Positions 8,396-32,191 of a stretch of 64,000 nucleotides of DNA are shown here, piece after piece. Within the stretch, counting starts at the first letter, position 1, and every line of letters starts with the position of its first letter. Source of the stretch: Daphnia pulex (lineage: Eukaryota > Arthropoda > Branchiopoda > Diplostraca > Daphniidae). The position numbers and the translations under genes are program-made. A model generated the notes under the pieces. It searched no databases and was not told where the DNA came from. It saw only the letters and a program-made list of their open reading frames with translations. The stretch covers positions 16,276,442 through 16,340,441 of the forward strand of contig NC_060026.1 of NCBI RefSeq assembly GCF_021134715.1, written 5' to 3'.

Positions 8396-10941
8396 ATGCC
8401 AACAAAATTACGTGTAGTTTTAGGGGACAACAGAGTAGGCGGCCAGACAAAGCAAAAGTATTATGATATTCCAATGGCAATGACTAAGACGGCCACGAAA
8501 GAAGTTTCCGAGAATGGCGCTGGCAAAGTAAACAGTTACAGAGATTTCACATCAACGATTCATAAACCAGCTGCTCAACAATTATTCATATGTCCAGGTA
8601 TCGCCTTGATTATTTTTCAGACTCTTTAAAGTTGAAAAATGACATTTTTCCAATTCTGTAAACAGAAGTTTCTCTGAAATGGGGATGTGCAATCATCTTT
8701 ATCCTGGCGTCAGTGTGCTATTTAAATTCAGTAAACGGGTCCTTTGTGTTTGACGACACAGAAGCAATAGTAAACAACGAAGATGCTAAAGGCAAGACTC
8801 CTCTCAACGAAATATTTTTCAATGACTTTTGGGGCACATCACTCAATCACAAGAGTAGTCACAAATCGTACCGACCATTGACCATTTTATCATTCAGGTA
8901 TTTTCTATACGAGACATTGAATGAATCATTTCACCAATTGACCTTGTTGTTGTTGTTGTTGTGCAGGTTAAACTACATTTTCAATGGGCTGGATCCAAGG
9001 CCCTTTCACTTGACGAATGTGTTGCTCCATTCCATCTGCTGCACCCTGAGTCTGGTGATCTTCTCAACTTTGTTGGGAGAAACTCGCCCGAGGCTGTCGT
9101 TCATCACGGCCATCCTTTTCTCGGTTCATCCCGTCCACACGGAAGCCGTCAGCGGAATAGTTGGGCGAGCGGATCTCCTCTGCGGAATCTTTTATTTTCT
9201 CTCCATCTACTCGTACGCGAAACATTTGGACGGAGGATCGCTGACGTCGTTCGCCACTTCGATGGCCAGCTGCGCCATCGCCATGTTCTGCAAAGAGCAG
9301 GGAATCACAGTCCTGGGCGTGGTCGCTGTTTACGACGTCACGAGATCCGTGACTGGCACTTTCAACTTTGGCAACGTCATGAAGCGAAGGGATATCCTCC
9401 AGCGTTTCTCTTTGATCGCCGTAGTTGGAGTGGCTCTTCTTTACGTCAGATTGAGTGTCATGGGCTCTTCCGGGGCTCCGGCCTTCCAGCGGGTCGACAA
9501 TCCAGCTTCCTTCGCCGATTCGCCGATGACCAGAGCTCTGAGTTATAACTACGTCTACTCGATCCACGCCTTGCTGCTCCTGTGGCCTCATTGGCTCTGC
9601 TTCGATTGGTCCATGGGTTGCATTCCGCTCATCCAGCAGCTGATGGATCCCCGCAATTTGGGCTCGTTATTCTTCTGGATCGTCATGTTTTCGGCCATTT
9701 TCAAAGCTCTCTTCAGTCCGTCTCAAAGGCAGCGAAAGTATCTGACCCTCGGTCTGGCCCTGATGGCCGTCCCTTTCCTACCGGCCACCAACATCTTTTT
9801 CCGCGTCGGTTTCGTGGTGGCCGAACGAGTTCTCTTCATGCCCGTCGCTGGATACTGTCTCATTCTCGTCTACGGTGCCGAGAAACTCAACACTTTCCTC
9901 TTTCCGTTTGGCCATTCCAAATTGTGGATCTTGCGGGGCTGCCTCCTGGCCGTCATCCTAACCTTTGGTTTGAAATCCTTCCGCCGGAATCTGGATTGGC
10001 AAGACGAGGGTCGGCTATTCCTGTCCGGATTGGCCGTTTGTCCGCTCAACGCCAAAGTTCACTACAACATTGGCAAAAATGCGGCGGATCGGGGATTGAG
10101 AGACGTGGCCATCGATCGCTACGAAAAGGCCCTGGAACTGAATCCGGACTACGACCAGGCCATGAACAATTTGGCCAATTTGCTCAAAGATTTGGGCCGT
10201 TTTCAGTCAGCTGAGGATTGGCTTGTCAAAGCTATTAGTGTTAGACCCGATTTCGCTGCCGCATGGATGAACCTGGGCATCGTCCAGGCACTTCTTCGTA
10301 AGCACAAAGAGGCCCGCGTGAGTTACTTGACGGCCTTGAGTCATCGTCGAAAGTATCCCGACTGCTATTACAACCTGGGAAACCTCGTAAGTTCTAATGT
10401 ATTTCATTCAAATTTGATGTTAATTACTAAATTCAATTTTTAAAAGTATTTGGAGCTGGGACAATTCCGGGAAGCGGAAGAAGCCTTCAGGAACGCAACT
10501 TTGTTGCAGCCAACCCACGTCCTGGCCTGGACCAATCTCATCGTTATGTTGGACAATACAGGTAAACTTTTAATAATTTAACATTTTAATTCAATTTAAC
10601 TAATCTTGGTTAACAAATCAGGTCAATCGCAACGATCGGAATCTACGGCGCTGGAAGCCCTGGCCATTCTACCCAACGAAGCCAATTTGCATTTCAGTCT
10701 GGCCGGAATTTTAGGCAAGCAGAGTCAATTTAAAGCGTCCGAGCTCCACTTCCTGTCGGCCATTCGACTCAATCCGCACAGTCCCATCTACCACACCAAT
10801 CTAGGTGTGCTCTATCACCGATGGAAAAAATTCCAGCTGGCCGAGCAGTCGTACCAGCGAGCCCTGTCACTGGACCCCCAATGGAAAAGTGCGACGGAAA
10901 ATCTCAAATTGCTGCAAAAGGCGAAACAGAATCAATTTTAA
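8396..10941 (+). CDS. TMTC4: Transmembrane O-mannosyltransferase with TPR repeats (TMTC4-like)
   Basis: ER membrane protein of the TMTC family, which adds O-mannose to cadherin-type domains (family knowledge). Exons: 8396-8597, 8666-8897, 8967-10386, 10447-10561, 10622-10941; 762 residues against about 741 in human TMTC4. The luminal diacidic motif of GT-C enzymes is seen in GSFVFDDTEAIVNN. SHKSYRPLTILSFRLNY, LFSVHPVHTEAVSGIVGRAD and several hydrophobic helices follow. The C-terminal third consists of TPR units, for example KVHYNIGKNAADRG, QAMNNLANLLKDLGR and AAWMNLGIVQALL. The gene converges on AFG2B, with 177 bases between stop codons. In-frame Met codons downstream of 8396 leave the start slightly uncertain. 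Confidence 0.93.
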
Positions 10942-24937: not shown

Positions 24938-27900
24938 TTACTTGCCTGATGCTGGAGGTGGGTTGCTGGCCATCGTGGCGGATATCCAGCCAAGGTAAGC
25001 GGACACGCGAGTAAACACGGGGACATGGGCAGGATCGGCACATCCGTTCGCGCTACCGAAGCTGACAACGCCGATTTGAACATTGCCGTTGACGAGAAGC
25101 GGTCCGCCACTGTCTCCCTGCAAGTAGAATCAATCGTTTGTTTATGTGAATAACGCGGTTGGTTGATGAAATGAATAGTTATAGGCAAAAGAGACTGACG
25201 AAACAAGTCGCTGTGTTCAATTGGGCAGCGCACAATTGTGTAGAACCGATGAATTGACGCCACTGTTGATTGCAAACGGTGTTGTCGTAGACGGTGACGT
25301 TAGCTTTCTGCAACGTCCACGAGTTACTTCCACCTTTAAATTGATTCATTGTTGTAAGGAAACTTATATAAATGGAAATTTAAAAAGTCAGAAAAAGAAA
25401 TGCATTTACTGGATGTTACTCCCCATCCTGTAATGACGGCCGACTGGTTCGAATAAGAACTGAAAGCTCTTAGATGAGCTGCAAGTTTTTTGGTGGTTGT
25501 TTTTATTGTTTTTAACGTTGACGGTTTAGGAGTTGTGATGGTAGACTTTATTGGTGTACTTTTAGTAGTGGGTTTTCCTGTCGTTTTTGTTGTCGTTGGT
25601 TTCAGTGTTGTAGTTGTCTTGGATGTGGGTTTTAATGTTGTGCTGGTTTTGGTCGTGGGTTTCAGTGTTGTAGTAGTTTTTGTTGTTGGTTTTAGAGTTG
25701 TAGTTGTCTTTGTTGTAGGTTTTAATGTTGTAGTTGTTTTGGTCGTGGGTTTTAATGTTGTGGTTGTTTTCGTTGTAGGTTTCAGTGTTGTAGTAGTTTT
25801 GGTTGTTGGTTTTAGAGTTGTAGTTGTCTTTGTTGTAGGTTTTAATGTTGTAGTTGTTTTGGTTGTGGGTTTCAATGTTGTGGTTGTTTTTGTTGTAGTA
25901 GTTTTTGTTGTAGGTTTCAGTGTTGTAGTTGTCTTTGTTGTAGGTTTTAATGTTGTAGTTGTTTTGGTCGTGGGTTTCAATGTTGTGGTTGTTTTTGTTG
26001 TAGTGGTTTTAGTCGTTGGTATTGGTGTTGTTGGTAGTGTGGTTTTTGGAGATATTGTGGTTGTTGTTGGTATTGTAGTTGTGGGCGATTGTGTTGTGGT
26101 CGATGTTGTTGATAGTGCGGTGGTTGTTCGCGATTGGGTCGTTGTCGTTGGTAATGTGGATGTAGTCGTTGTTGGCGATTGGGTTGTTGTTGTTGGTAGT
26201 GCGGATGTTGTTGTTTCTACATCTGTCGTTGGCGATCGAGTTGTTGTCGTTGGCGATTGGGTTGTTGTCGTCGGTAATGTGGTTGTAGTCGTTGGCGATT
26301 GAGTTGTTGTCGTCGATGGTGTGGTTGTACTCGTTGGTATTGTAGTTGTTTCTGCATCCGTCGTGGTTGGCGATTGGGTTGTTGTCGTTGGTAGTGTGGT
26401 TGTAGTTGTTTCTGCATCTATCGTAGTTGGCGATTCGGTCGTTGTCGTTGGTAGTGTGGTTGTAGTTGTTGGCGATTCGGTTGTTGTCGTTGGTAGTGTG
26501 GTTGTAGTTGTTTCTGCATCTGTCGTAGTTGGCGACTGAGTTGTTGTCGTTGGTAGTGTGGTTGTAGTCGTGGTTGGCGATTCGGTTGTTGTCGTTGGTA
26601 ATGTGGTTGTAGTTCTTGGCGATTCGGTTGTTGTCGTTGGTAGTGTGGTTGTAGTTGTTTCTGCATCTATAGTAATTGGCAATTGAGTTGTTGTTGTCGG
26701 TAGTGTGGTTGTAGTTGTTTCTGCATCTGTAGTAATTGGCAATTGAGTTGTTGTTGTCGGTAGTGTGGTTGTGGTTGTTTCTGCATCTGTAGTAATTGGC
26801 AATTGAGTTGTTGTTGTCGGTAGTGTGGTTGTAGTTGTTTCTGCATCTGTAGTAGTTGGCGATTCGGTTGTTGTCGTTGGTAGTGTGGTTGTAGTTGTTT
26901 CTGCATCTGTAATAATTGGCAATTGAGTTGTTGTTGTCGGTAGTGTGGTTGTAGTTGTTTCTGCATCTGTCGTAGTTGGCGATTCGGTCGTTGTCGTTGG
27001 TAGTGTGGTTGTAGTTGTTTCTGCATCTGTCGTAGTTGGCGATTCGGTTGTTGTCGTTGGTAGTGTGTTTGTAGTTGTTTCTGCATCTGTCGTAGTTGGC
27101 GATTGAGTTGTTGTTGTTGGTAGTGTGGTTGTGGTTGTTTCTGCATCTGTCGTAGTTGGCGATTCGGTTGTTGTCGTTGGTAGTGTGGTTGTGGTTGTTT
27201 CTGCATCTGTAGTAATTGGCAATTGAGTTGTTGTTGTCGGTAGTGTGGTTGTAGTTGTTTCTGCATCTGTAGTAGTTGGCGATTCGGTTGTTGTCGTTGG
27301 TAGTGTGGTTGTAGTTGTTTTTGCATCTGTAGTAGTTGGCGATTCGGTTGTTGTCGTTGGTAGTGTGGTTGTAGTTGTTTCTGCATCTGTAGTAGTTGGC
27401 GATTCGGTCGTTGTCGTTGGTAGTGTGGTTGTCGAAAATAGTATTGTTGTTGTTGATATTAAAGTTGTATCCGTTGTTACAGGGTCTGTCGTTGTTGGCA
27501 ATTGTGTTGTAGTTGTTGTCAAGTCGGGATCAATTGGAAGTTGAACAAAGGGAATGTTAGCAGTTGCGGGTACTGCTTGATTTAACACCAGTAAGGCGAT
27601 GTCGTTCAACTGTTAGCATAATATTTCATTAGATTCTCTTTGGAGACACAAAAGGCATATTGCTATTCTTACAATATGAGTCGTATTCATGAAAAATTGT
27701 TGATGTGCGACATATGATGAGACCCTTCTAACGAGGGATCCGGGTCCTCCGCCAGTTATGTTCAATGTATTGATGAACACGTAGCCATTCCCAGTATCAG
27801 TGGGCAGACTATAATAAATCAAATCAAATGATTTTCATTTCATTGTCAGACAAAACGTTTTCAATATGTGAAGTTGTCTGTAGCGTTCGTGATGCCTTAC

Positions 27901-28398
27901 CCGTCGACGCAATGGGCTGCTGTAAGAATATAAGACGATGCGATCAAGGTTCCACCACATAGGCGATATAAGCCGGCTGTTGTATTAATTGGAAATAATA
28001 GGCTAGCCTGAAAAAGGGAAATATTTTCTGAATTTGTAATTTTTGTCATAAAATTGAAAATGTCGCCGCTGTTTTACGCGCGTGACGTTACTTGTTATAA
28101 ATTAAATACCATAAAAGGAAAATCGCCGGCTTGAGCTGGGATTCCATTGATGATTGAAATCTGGGGTGGTTTTTTCAGCCTCACTTTAATCGCAAATTGA
28201 ATTAAAAGTTAGGCTATTGGAAAGAGTTATTTTATAAGCCGTTTTGTATTACCTAGTACATGTCTGTCGATTGATTTCGGACAGACGAATACGACGAAGC
28301 CAACCAAACTAGCGGCCTAATGTCGTTTTATGAAAATGAGAAATTTCGAAAATATTTTGTTGCGAAATGCTTGATATTACCAATAAAGTAAGACGCAT
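24938..28398 (-). CDS. S1 serine protease with a 676-residue Thr-rich insert inside the catalytic domain
   Basis: Exons on the minus strand: 28398-28381, 28316-28253, 28183-28110, 28007-27901, 27808-27673, 27609-25410, 25333-25200, 25117-24938; 970 residues. The signal peptide is split over two exons ([19 protein letters not shown]). The mature end starts [15 protein letters not shown] (from residue 38). The catalytic triad is complete: TAAHC His84, LNDIALL Asp136, GDSGGP Ser914. Between [10 protein letters not shown] (to 163) and the VITGWG strand lies a Thr/Pro-rich insert (about 164-839), encoded by the same 2.2 kb exon. The S1 position equivalent to 189 reads Ala, so trypsin-like Lys/Arg cleavage is not expected. 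The residue before the mature N-terminus is Ser, so activation is also not by a trypsin-type cut. Likely secreted and heavily O-glycosylated, for instance in gut or mucus; this is inferred. Confidence 0.88.
25590..26020 (-). repeat. 30-base coding minisatellite ([10 protein letters not shown] type)
   Basis: Tandem 30-base units encode [10 protein letters not shown]-like decapeptides, with a few units shortened or fused. They form the C-terminal part of the protease insert, just before the second half of the catalytic domain. Confidence 0.9.
26300..27430 (-). repeat. 60-base coding minisatellite (20-residue Thr-rich units)
   Basis: A regular 60-base period is visible from about 26640 to 27430 and is more degenerate below that. 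Each unit encodes [20 protein letters not shown] or a variant such as TTQLPITTD. Some units are shorter. Near-identity between neighbours points to recent array turnover, and the count probably varies between individuals. Confidence 0.92.
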
Positions 28399-30094
28399 GG
28401 TATAACCTGGCGTAGTGTATATATAAAACAAGAAGCAGACGGAACTCGACCGGTATACGACCACGATGAGAGAGTCCTGATGAGAGAATACCCTTCTTAC
28501 TTGCATTGGGGCAGAATTATACCTGGCAAAAAGGTGTCGATGGGATTTCGATAGACGCACTGGTCTACGTGACTATTCGTTTTCGTCGACGTGTCAGCAT
28601 CCAACTTGTGGTAAACGAAATCCAAAGCGGCGAGTGTATCTGGCATTCGAACAATTTCTTGTCGCACATGTTTTCCACGAAACTGCATGGCAGACAGACA
28701 TGTCATGAAATTCATTCCGATCAACAGCATCGGTTGCTTCGCGTCTATGCATGCATTTACCAAGGCATTTACGGAGCAGCAAACCGGATGTGTATAAGCT
28801 AGAACTGGTTTTATAAACATTAGCCTCGGAGTGTATTAGACCGTATTAGCCAGAAGGCATGCAGATGTGAGCGCTTCGTGTTTCTACTTTATTCGAGTTG
28901 CATGTATAGCGACAGTGTAGCGCCGACACACAATTTATCAGGGACGTCGGAGAAGTGGCGCACATATGTTCAATCCAATGCAGCTGCGACTGTGTTGAAA
29001 TGAATCCCCGACTGAAATATAAGTGGTTGTATCGTTTTGTGAAACTAGGCCAACAATTTTCATTACATTTAGAATTTGGTTATTATAAAATATTTCGGCG
29101 CTCGTCGTATCGTTAATTGACTTAGTTCGTTGAATCGTTGGTAAACAGGTAATCGATATGTTAGCAGTTAGCAGACGACTAAAATAAAAAAAACGATGGC
29201 ACGTCGTTTGGCGTGTGACATAAATTAGTTTTCAATTTTCATTTATTGTTTTAGTTACCCAGTCCGTGACTTGTGTAATTTTTCAACCTTTTCGTTCGTA
29301 GTATTAAAATTACGAGTCAAATGAAACCATAAAAAGCAAGAAATTTTTTGTTTAATCAGAGAAGAAGGCGTAGCTAAACGTGACGTGAGAAGCTTGCCTT
29401 TTGCCGGCCACTTTTAAGGTATCCCTTTGTTGTTAACAAAACTGGCTTGAAAAGCGTCCCTTATAAATGCACGTTTGAATTGTTTCATGGCTGAATTCAA
29501 GTTTGATGGACTAATCATGTTATACTCATAGAATTCGGCAGCACCAGGATCCAAGAAAGAAAAGGTTCAAGACTTTTGTGTATTGTTAAGGCAGAACAAT
29601 TTAAAATAGGGGCAATTTGTTGATTCAAGGTAATCAAAGTAATTTGTTCAAGGTTTTTCTATTGCAGTTGATTATATCAAGAGATTTAAAAATTAAAATT
29701 TGCCGTTTATTTACTTTCAGTTGGAAAACAAAACGCAAACTGTGTCAGGAAAACCGGACAATGAAGATGATTTCTTTCTCTACTTTGAAAACTGTTTCAA
29801 ACTGAAGGTTCTGCAGGAAAATGCCCAATCAAGTAAGCCTATACAATTTTCAAGTAATCGATGAGAATGCATCCAGAAAGTGCTGGTCTGCTATAAAATG
29901 GTTACTACCATCTTTTGAAACTGCTGACCTCTCAAGTCTCAACCTTCTTCTTTTGATATTTTCTTTCATTAAGCTTGCTTTATTATATAACTATTCCCAG
30001 AAGTTATTCTTGCTAAAAAATAGTCTAGCCAATCTTTGAAGAAGCAGCAGGTTAACTGCCAGTATGCAAGTCGTTTAATGTTTTGTTTTAACAA
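28399..30094. other. Gene-free stretch
   Basis: Short overlapping open frames occur at 28.5-28.8 kb on both strands without splice logic or family resemblance. Nothing else was recognised. The 5' flank of the protease gene lies at the left end; a TATATATA run at 28418-28425 is too close to the ATG to be its TATA box. Confidence 0.45.
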
Positions 30095-30320
30095 TCCAAA
30101 ATCAACAGCATCAAACCAACAGAGAGACGAGCTATGACAGACCTTGGTTTCTGAATGAGCGATAAACTACTTTAATTATCAACAAACATGGTATGAAATC
30201 CCCATTCAATGTTTAGCTTTTGATTTTTGAATTTTATGGTCTGTTGATGGGCATATTTCATTGCCTGGGAAAACAGTTAGGCTTTGGTTTCTGGCTTGAA
30301 TTGAATCTTACAAAAAAATA
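30095..30320 (-). pseudogene. Dead copy of the C1q gene 5' end
   Basis: The minus strand from about 30135 down resembles the signal-peptide start of the C1q gene at 19693 (GCTCGTCTCTCTGT is shared), but its ATG is ATA. The flank at 30140-30320 resembles 19710-19760 plus 20650-20780, including CAACAAACATGGTATG and TTCTGGCTTGAATTGAATCT. No C1q head follows. This is a broken duplicate. Confidence 0.6.
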
Positions 30321-30698
30321 ACATTTTTCCTCCTCGAAGAAAAAAAAAGCCTACAGCAAATAATTTTGGTCAAGAATTGGTTAGGCTAGTAGCTGATGAT
30401 GAATTCTGAAAATCAGAACTATGTCTCTGTCTGTACCATTCTGCACAAATTAATTTGCACCTAATTCCTAAATGAGAAAATTTCAAAAAGAAATGTCCAA
30501 GGTTTATTTTGAATTTTGAGCAGTTTGGATTACGGGTGAAATCGATTTTTAACTATCAATCTCTAAATTTTTAACTATCGATCGATGAATTCACATGGAT
30601 ATTCTTAAAAGAACTAATGTCGTCTGCTTTTTAATGGCAGTAGGCTTAGTAGCTACTTCCGAAACTACAGTCAAGTAAATACGCTAGAACGCTAAACA

Positions 30699-32191
30699 AT
30701 GGACATCCATAGTCTGAGAGATAGTTATCGTATGGCTGCAACCAACATGAGAATCGAGGACATAGTTAATGGTATGTGCGGGTATTTTTGTTTTCTATGT
30801 AGCTTGTATTCTCATATGAATCTTTATCATGTAGGTATCAACAGTGGTGATGAAAACATGGAAATGACTGCAACCTACGCTGTTCGTCAATTCCTCAGCA
30901 GGTATCCCAGCTCGGATACCATGGGTTATTCACACATTGACATCTTCATCAATGCCAATGTTGTTCCCAAGCTGGTAGAATTCCTCAGCCGTGTCAAGAA
31001 GTATTTCGTGTCTTTATAACTTGGTTTTCAAACCTTTCATTACATGATGCTTTTCTGTTTTAGTCCTGATCTTCAGTTTGAGTCAGTCAGGGCCCTCGGC
31101 AACATTGCATCAGGCACATCTGATCATACCAAAGCTGTCGTCAGTGCTGGGGCTGTTGGTGGTTTAATATCTTTCTTGGATTCACCTGATTCAGTTGTGG
31201 CCAACCAAGCTGTCTGGGCTCTCGGTAACATCGCCGTAGACGGACCAGAGCTTCGAGATTACGTCATCGAGCAAGGCATAATTAATCCTCTGATCGCCTT
31301 GATTAAACCCTACACCTTAGTAAGTTTAGTTTTGAATTTAATTTATACATTTCAACATTTAATAAGTGATTTTATTATTAGGATACATTATTATTGCGTA
31401 ACGTCGCTTGGACTTTGTCCTACTTGTGTCTCAACAAGATTCCTCCGCCCAGTGTCCCACTGCTTCTTCCCGCCCTGGCCCAGCTTATTCACAACGACGA
31501 CGAGGAGATTCTCGTCGACGCTTGCTCGGCTCTATCTTACCTCACTGATAGCCCCAACGAACTTATTCAAGAAGTTGTTGACGCCGGAATCGTCCCTCAG
31601 CTCATCACTTTGCTGGACAACACTAAAGTGGCCGTCATTACCGCCACTCTAAGGACCGTGTCTAAAATTGCTGCTGGCAATGCCATCCAGATCCAAGCTC
31701 TCATCACCAACAACGTTGTTCGTCCGTTGATGGACGTGCTGGGCAAAGGCGATTTCGAATGCCAAAAGGAAGCAGCTTGGGTCATCACGAACATCACCTC
31801 GGGTAATACATTTCAGTTTTGCTGGTGCTGATTGATATTTCTAAACTTTGTCTTCTCAATTTCAGGTGGCACTTTCGAGCAGATCGCTTTGTTGCAACAT
31901 TTGTTTGTTGGTGTCATGGCTCCGCTGTACACTTTGTTTGAGGACAAAGAAGACAGCAAGACTATCTCGGTCCTGTTGGATGGCTTGGCTAATATTTTGG
32001 CCGCAGCCGAAACAATGGGCGATCTGGAGAATGTTTCCCTTCACGTCGAAGAGTGTTATGTCCTGGATCGCATCGAACTTTTGCATAATCTCCACGACGA
32101 TGATGAGATTTCTGACAAGGCCCTGGCCATTCTGGAGCAGTACTTTCCATTTGACGTGGAGATGAGAAGACGTACGGGGAGAAGAGACTGA
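30699..32191 (+). CDS. Importin-alpha-like Arm-repeat protein lacking the IBB domain
   Basis: Exons: 30699-30771, 30835-31000, 31064-31319, 31382-31802, 31866-32191; 413 residues against about 520-540 for importin alpha. Arm repeats are clear: [54 protein letters not shown]. The N-terminus ([20 protein letters not shown]) goes straight into the first Arm repeat; no basic importin-beta-binding segment is seen here or in the 200 bases upstream. The C-terminus stops soon after EQYFPF, without the usual tail. Several NLS-contact Trp/Asn positions differ: [13 protein letters not shown] has Arg for Trp, ACSALSYL has Ser for Trp, and WTLSYLC has Tyr for Asn. It may be a specialised paralog; transport of classical NLS cargo is doubtful. 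Confidence 0.85.

Follow-up and report, generated by a model that had tools for sequence, protein, structure and literature searches.

Can the catalytic domain of an S1 serine protease be interrupted by nearly 700 residues of mucin-like sequence and remain a single, intact domain? The question is raised by a minus-strand gene of Daphnia pulex in a 64,000-nucleotide stretch of contig NC_060026.1 (RefSeq assembly GCF_021134715.1, positions 16,276,442 to 16,340,441), hereafter called the window, in whose own coordinates all positions are given. The S1 fold is among the best-studied protein folds and is usually compact. If the arrangement described here is true, an inter-barrel linker only a few residues long can expand to almost 700, and nature would have supplied a model for proteases that are anchored in a matrix or controlled by assembly.

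Exons and start of the protease gene

Splice reconstruction places exons 2-7 at 28183-24938 on the minus strand, all joined in phase. Exon 2 (28110..28183; acceptor AAG, donor GTATTT) encodes RLKKPPQIS followed by 15 residues at the predicted mature N-terminus (the Ile16 equivalent), and exon 3 (27901..28007) runs from CGGTL to LTAAHC with the catalytic His. Exon 4 (27673..27808) continues the N-terminal barrel to NTTHI. Exon 5 (25410..27609, 2200 nt) holds LNDIALL with the catalytic Asp, then a Thr/Pro-rich insert, then VITGWG. Exon 6 (25200..25333) encodes part of the C-terminal barrel with three of its four cysteines, and exon 7 (24938..25117) extends from GDSGGP, with the catalytic Ser, through the stop codon. 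The six exons contain no stops and no frameshifts and yield a partial protein of 942 residues, lacking the first exon. Donors of exons 2-6 score from 0.66 to 9.23 (n = 5) with a simple score matrix, extended solely to admit GC; the lowest is the weak donor of exon 6, GTCAGT.

This anatomy bears out most of a sequence-only reading of the locus, which had put the insert between the catalytic Asp (LNDIALL) and VITGWG in a single open exon with protease sequence at both ends. Its triad of residues 84, 136 and 914 corresponds to our His56, Asp108 and Ser886, a shift of 28 that reflects our numbering from exon 2, and its distance of about 780 residues from His and Asp to Ser compares with a measured 830 from His to Ser and 778 from Asp to Ser. 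The insert itself, put at 676 residues, comes to 679 on recounting (25486..27522, minus strand). The splice phases, all of which had been taken to agree, do so at the five introns among exons 2-7; at the join of the first exon their agreement was not confirmed.

The 28 extra residues of that reading fit a start at ATG 28398, an exon end at 28317 and a GC donor scoring −6.3. This start is hydrophobic (best 9-residue mean 2.48; one other scanned start is higher). The one GT that precedes its in-frame stop lies in phase 0, whereas a join to either usable acceptor of exon 2 requires phase 1 or 2. In a scan of 28200-31100 that allowed one leader exon of 12-139 nt spliced straight to exon 2, 139 starts were phase-compatible, 81 with GT and 58 with GC donors. 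Among the 14 that passed a filter and the 40 most hydrophobic of the 139, judged by eye, none paired a signal-like start with a fair donor. About 1 kb upstream of exon 2, at 29221-29173 on the minus strand, lies a very hydrophobic short frame, MSHAKRRAIVFFILVV, whose phase fits exon 2 but which could reach it only by way of a very poor GC donor (−10.7).

Because no scanned start pairs a signal-like sequence with a fair donor, the first exon is a candidate only, and it is possible that the gene is decayed or incomplete. It might be non-functional as modelled, either as a decaying duplicate without a signal-peptide exon or because its true first exon lies elsewhere. The hydrophobic start at 28398 with its very poor donor would fit such a history, as would the weak donor of exon 6 and a Ser residue directly before the mature N-terminus. 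However, exons 2-7 are open throughout, the triad and cysteines are intact and the 30-nt repeat within the insert shows a synonymous bias (see below), and on this balance we regard a non-functional gene as unlikely.

At the other end of the gene, a GC-type donor, CAG/GCAAGT (24946/24945), overlaps the last codons of the protease just before the stop (24950-24941, minus strand). This sequence is a typical GC-type donor consensus; no exon joinable to it was recognised when frames were compared by eye. The next gene downstream (about 23430-21472, minus strand, exons joined by eye) appears to encode a secreted protein with two C-type lectin domains, and Pfam Lectin_C matches both lectin pieces just above its cut-off. 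A linker rich in Thr and Pro, with TTEKDVPTNP as a short repeat of its own, appears to separate the two domains, so that another Thr-rich linker lies next to the protease gene. Fusion of the two genes is rejected, since the lectin gene starts with its own signal-peptide-like MKMSSSYFFKVFLLATAVAVCQA (by eye).

Searching the window with both halves of the protease (tblastn) revealed no nearby paralogue: the best match outside the gene had an E value of 0.65, and a match of E 0.11 lay within the protease gene on the other strand. Upstream, an Armadillo-repeat ORF (31382-31831, plus strand; PF00514), which we take to resemble importin alpha, runs away from the protease gene, and ORFs at 31020-31652 and 31832-32191 look like parts of that same gene. 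The window also holds two C1q-domain ORFs (PF00386) on the minus strand, at 19512-19012 (E 6.3e-15) and 41035-40538 (E 1.6e-15), and an ORF with a TMTC protein O-mannosyl-transferase domain and TPR repeats (8662-10443, plus strand; PF08409). The remaining assignments, all on the minus strand, are an AAA-type ATPase ORF (13583-12444; PF00004), probable further AAA pieces at 12068-11691 and 11679-11293 (by eye) and a protein kinase domain piece (38798-38223; PF00069). The window gave no match to an Rfam family and no tRNA in a bacterial-code scan.

The S1 domain and its catalytic residues

In a Pfam search of the partial protein, Trypsin (PF00089) was the sole family found up to an E value of 0.01; it scored 118.5 bits against a cut-off of 20.6 and matched in two stretches. 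When the flanks of the insert were scanned apart, the left one matched positions 1-110 and the right one positions 119-220 of the 220-position profile. Since these are complementary parts of the profile, the insert lies inside a single domain, with almost no profile lost. Two separate genes, which the sequence-only reading had named as an outcome at odds with it, and likewise two separate domains, are disfavoured by this complementarity within one splice-compatible gene. The protein thus has two of the features by which PF00089 members are recognised, namely a profile match above the curated cut-off across the whole domain and His56, Asp108 and Ser886 in order with GDSGGP. It departs from a continuous catalytic domain of about 220-250 residues, a usual though not strictly defining feature of the family, by the 679 residues inserted.

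Structural alignments locate the insertion point. A query from which the insert had been removed matched 531 distinct PDB sequences, and in the best 60 of these 531 the alignment formed a single stretch, from query residue 4-39 (a few begin at 21-39) to 247-259. Alignments to 2xxl, elastase 1bru, kallikrein and elastase family member 1 place the insert after QLPIDPD and before SAVITGWG, a site which we take to be about residue 128 in chymotrypsin numbering, in the linker between the two barrels. The IINGIP of exon 2 aligns with the mature chain starts of PDB proteases; the residue before it is Ser, and the exon upstream is a candidate only. A Ser preceding the mature N-terminus is unusual for zymogen activation.

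Equivalents of Asp194 and Ser214 are present in alignments read by eye, and the protein has six cysteines, at residues 41, 57, 859, 873, 882 and 909. Judged by position, the first half probably contains one pair and the second half two, which would leave the halves without a joining disulfide. The specificity pocket reads Ala189, Gly216 and Pro226 in the alignment to 1bru (by eye, in chymotrypsin numbering). With Ala rather than Asp at the position aligned to 189, the pocket lacks the determinant of trypsin specificity, and the enzyme is predicted to be a non-tryptic S1A protease, chymotrypsin- or elastase-like by its pocket. Profile halves, alignments and motifs together support the earlier proposal of an intact triad within one S1 domain that is interrupted by mucin-type repeats.

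Repeats and reading frame of the insert

The insert is dominated by Thr (384 residues), with 72 Pro, 47 Leu, 39 Lys and 34 Ser, so that Thr and Ser make up 62% and Pro 11%. It has no Cys and no N-glycosylation sequons; the protease part carries five sequons. All 580 windows of 100 residues in the insert pass a mucin-type (PTS) criterion of at least 40% Ser plus Thr and at least 5% Pro, and tandem repeats are present. A repeat search found 13 regular units of a 60-nt repeat (20 residues each, with variants) at 26641..27420 on the minus strand, outside which irregular copies continue to about 26100. A second family comprises 13 units of 30 nt (10 residues each) at 25591..25995, also on the minus strand, with one 15-nt partial unit between units 3 and 4. 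Between and flanking the two families the sequence is Thr-rich and less regular. Neither a PDB match for a stretch of the repeat nor a match for exon 5 among phage records was found. Charge is segregated along the insert, with 46 Asp/Glu and three Lys/Arg in the first 440 residues and no Asp/Glu and 39 Lys/Arg in the last 219.

Assemblies easily go wrong at tandem arrays of 30 and 60 nt, and the array might have landed between protease exons through a misassembly, or the number of its copies might be wrong. Nevertheless, exon 5 runs on into protease sequence at both ends, and both edges of the array, though less regular, stay Thr-rich and keep to the protease frame. An array that grades at either end into imperfect Thr-rich sequence is more readily explained by an old expansion than by a misjoin. 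In the 64-kb window, moreover, no stretch outside exon 5 passed the mucin threshold (60-residue windows, six frames), which leaves no obvious local donor for a misplaced array. A misassembly therefore appears very unlikely.

Whether the insert is translated can be approached through its frame and its codons. Over the insert the protease frame contains no stops, the other two sense frames contain 22 and 3, and the antisense frames contain 37, 8 and 69. Units of the 30-nt repeat depart from their consensus 46 times, 44 of them synonymously, whereas only 25 of 90 possible changes would be synonymous; when each distinct change is counted once, 12 of 14 are synonymous. The 60-nt repeat shows 26 synonymous differences among 46, against 55 among 180 possible changes, and 6 of 13 when each distinct change is counted once, a modest excess. 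These counts cover the two regular repeat blocks, and because repeat copies share ancestry, binomial tests on them are optimistic. The 30-nt units were picked by their coding-like pattern, with no full unit dropped within 25995-25591. The 30-nt family is thus persuasive for coding and the 60-nt family only mildly so. A sole stop-free frame together with the synonymous bias of the 30-nt repeat points to selection on the encoded protein, and the insert looks to be translated in the protease frame. The same two features disfavour a chance open reading frame.

They also bear on the possibility that the insert acts as an in-frame intron which most transcripts lose, or is included alternatively, such that a protease with a somewhat longer linker remains. 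Eight of the 16 GT dinucleotides of exon 5 fall within the insert. Among eight in-frame GT/AG pairs, the one with the best flank combination, by judgement, joins a donor at 27480 (CCT/GTAACA, score 1.19) to an acceptor ending at 25444 and would remove 2037 nt in frame. This acceptor is a CAG preceded by 11 pyrimidines in 17 positions (the six used acceptors have 7-12), the donor outscores that of exon 6 (0.66), and simple scores of such pairs lie within the range of used sites. However, the donor at 27480 is weaker than four of the five used donors, and the 44 synonymous differences of 46 and the single stop-free frame speak for selection on the encoded protein. We consider it rather improbable that the insert is usually spliced out.

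Proposed role of the loop and comparison with known proteases

With moderate confidence, we favour the explanation that the gene encodes one active non-tryptic S1A protease with an expanded mucin-type, probably O-glycosylated inter-barrel loop, a proposal that draws on one sequence. A tandemly expanded Thr/Pro region would have grown within the loop that joins the N-terminal barrel, with His and Asp, to the C-terminal barrel, with Ser. In known S1 structures this linker follows the protein surface at a distance from the active site, which would still allow the barrels to pack together and build the triad. The insert would then project from the enzyme as an extended O-glycosylated loop. If the protease enters a layer of mucus or matrix on secretion, the loop would most likely serve to hold the enzyme there and to protect the linker from cleavage.

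The barrels might also pair both within and between molecules, as a mucin-tethered split protease that cross-links mucin strands into a proteolytic network. By a rough estimate, a stiff glycosylated tether between the barrels would span about 170 nm, and a rough polymer estimate with assumed length and stiffness values gives an effective intramolecular concentration of about 3 micromolar for the glycosylated tether versus about 120 micromolar for a bare one. At about 3 micromolar, a densely packed secretion would permit barrels to swap between molecules. We nonetheless regard such a network as highly improbable.

Among the papers listed in full-text searches of a literature with partial coverage and few subscription papers, none describes the arrangement, judged by titles and abstract openings (PMC2685406, PMC2678976, PMC2674882, PMC9926121 and PMC12549020 were also consulted), and the sole match to "mucin-like insertion" was a sea-anemone collagen; this silence is weak evidence of novelty. 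Among the proteases of D. pulex itself, PMC2678069 places the chymotrypsins near the C-type brachyurins and notes that pocket residues 189 and 226 are sporadically replaced; its text does not contain the word "mucin". As described there, these chymotrypsin-like, brachyurin-related enzymes resemble the present one in S1 family, non-Asp189 pocket, triad and, by position, disulfides, but their size is about 25-30 kDa and they carry both a signal peptide and a propeptide.

We also compared the spacing of the triad with that in loci found with the 52 residues of exon 7, comprising nine viral-contig loci and the best 80 of at least 179 prokaryote relatives. In 78 of these 89 loci the His motif and GDSGGP occurred in one ORF, giving 82 domains (the other 11 loci had no measurable domain), and the Asp motif was present in 65 of the 82 and absent from 17. 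Across the 65 domains the distance from Asp to Ser was 35-160 residues, with a median of 94 and a minimum that is probably a motif mis-hit, against 778 here, though a non-animal set of this kind says little about arthropods.

Porcine elastase (1bru), chymotrypsin-C, plasma kallikrein and the Drosophila serine protease 2xxl, presumably Grass, align with the protease over the whole domain apart from the insert, and none of the four has an extended insertion between the Asp strand and GWG. Mosaic S1 proteases such as Drosophila graal have mucin-like or Thr-rich sequence alongside the catalytic domain; they combine S1 and mucin-like sequence as the present gene does, but there the mucin-like part lies outside the domain and here it splits it. 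In a Trichinella protein, two trypsin-like domains flank a hydrophilic region, so that a long hydrophilic stretch again stands between protease sequences, although these are two domains there and the halves of one domain here. Mucin-like regions beside S1 domains are thus known, and what appears to be new in this gene is such a region inside the domain, at the inter-barrel linker.
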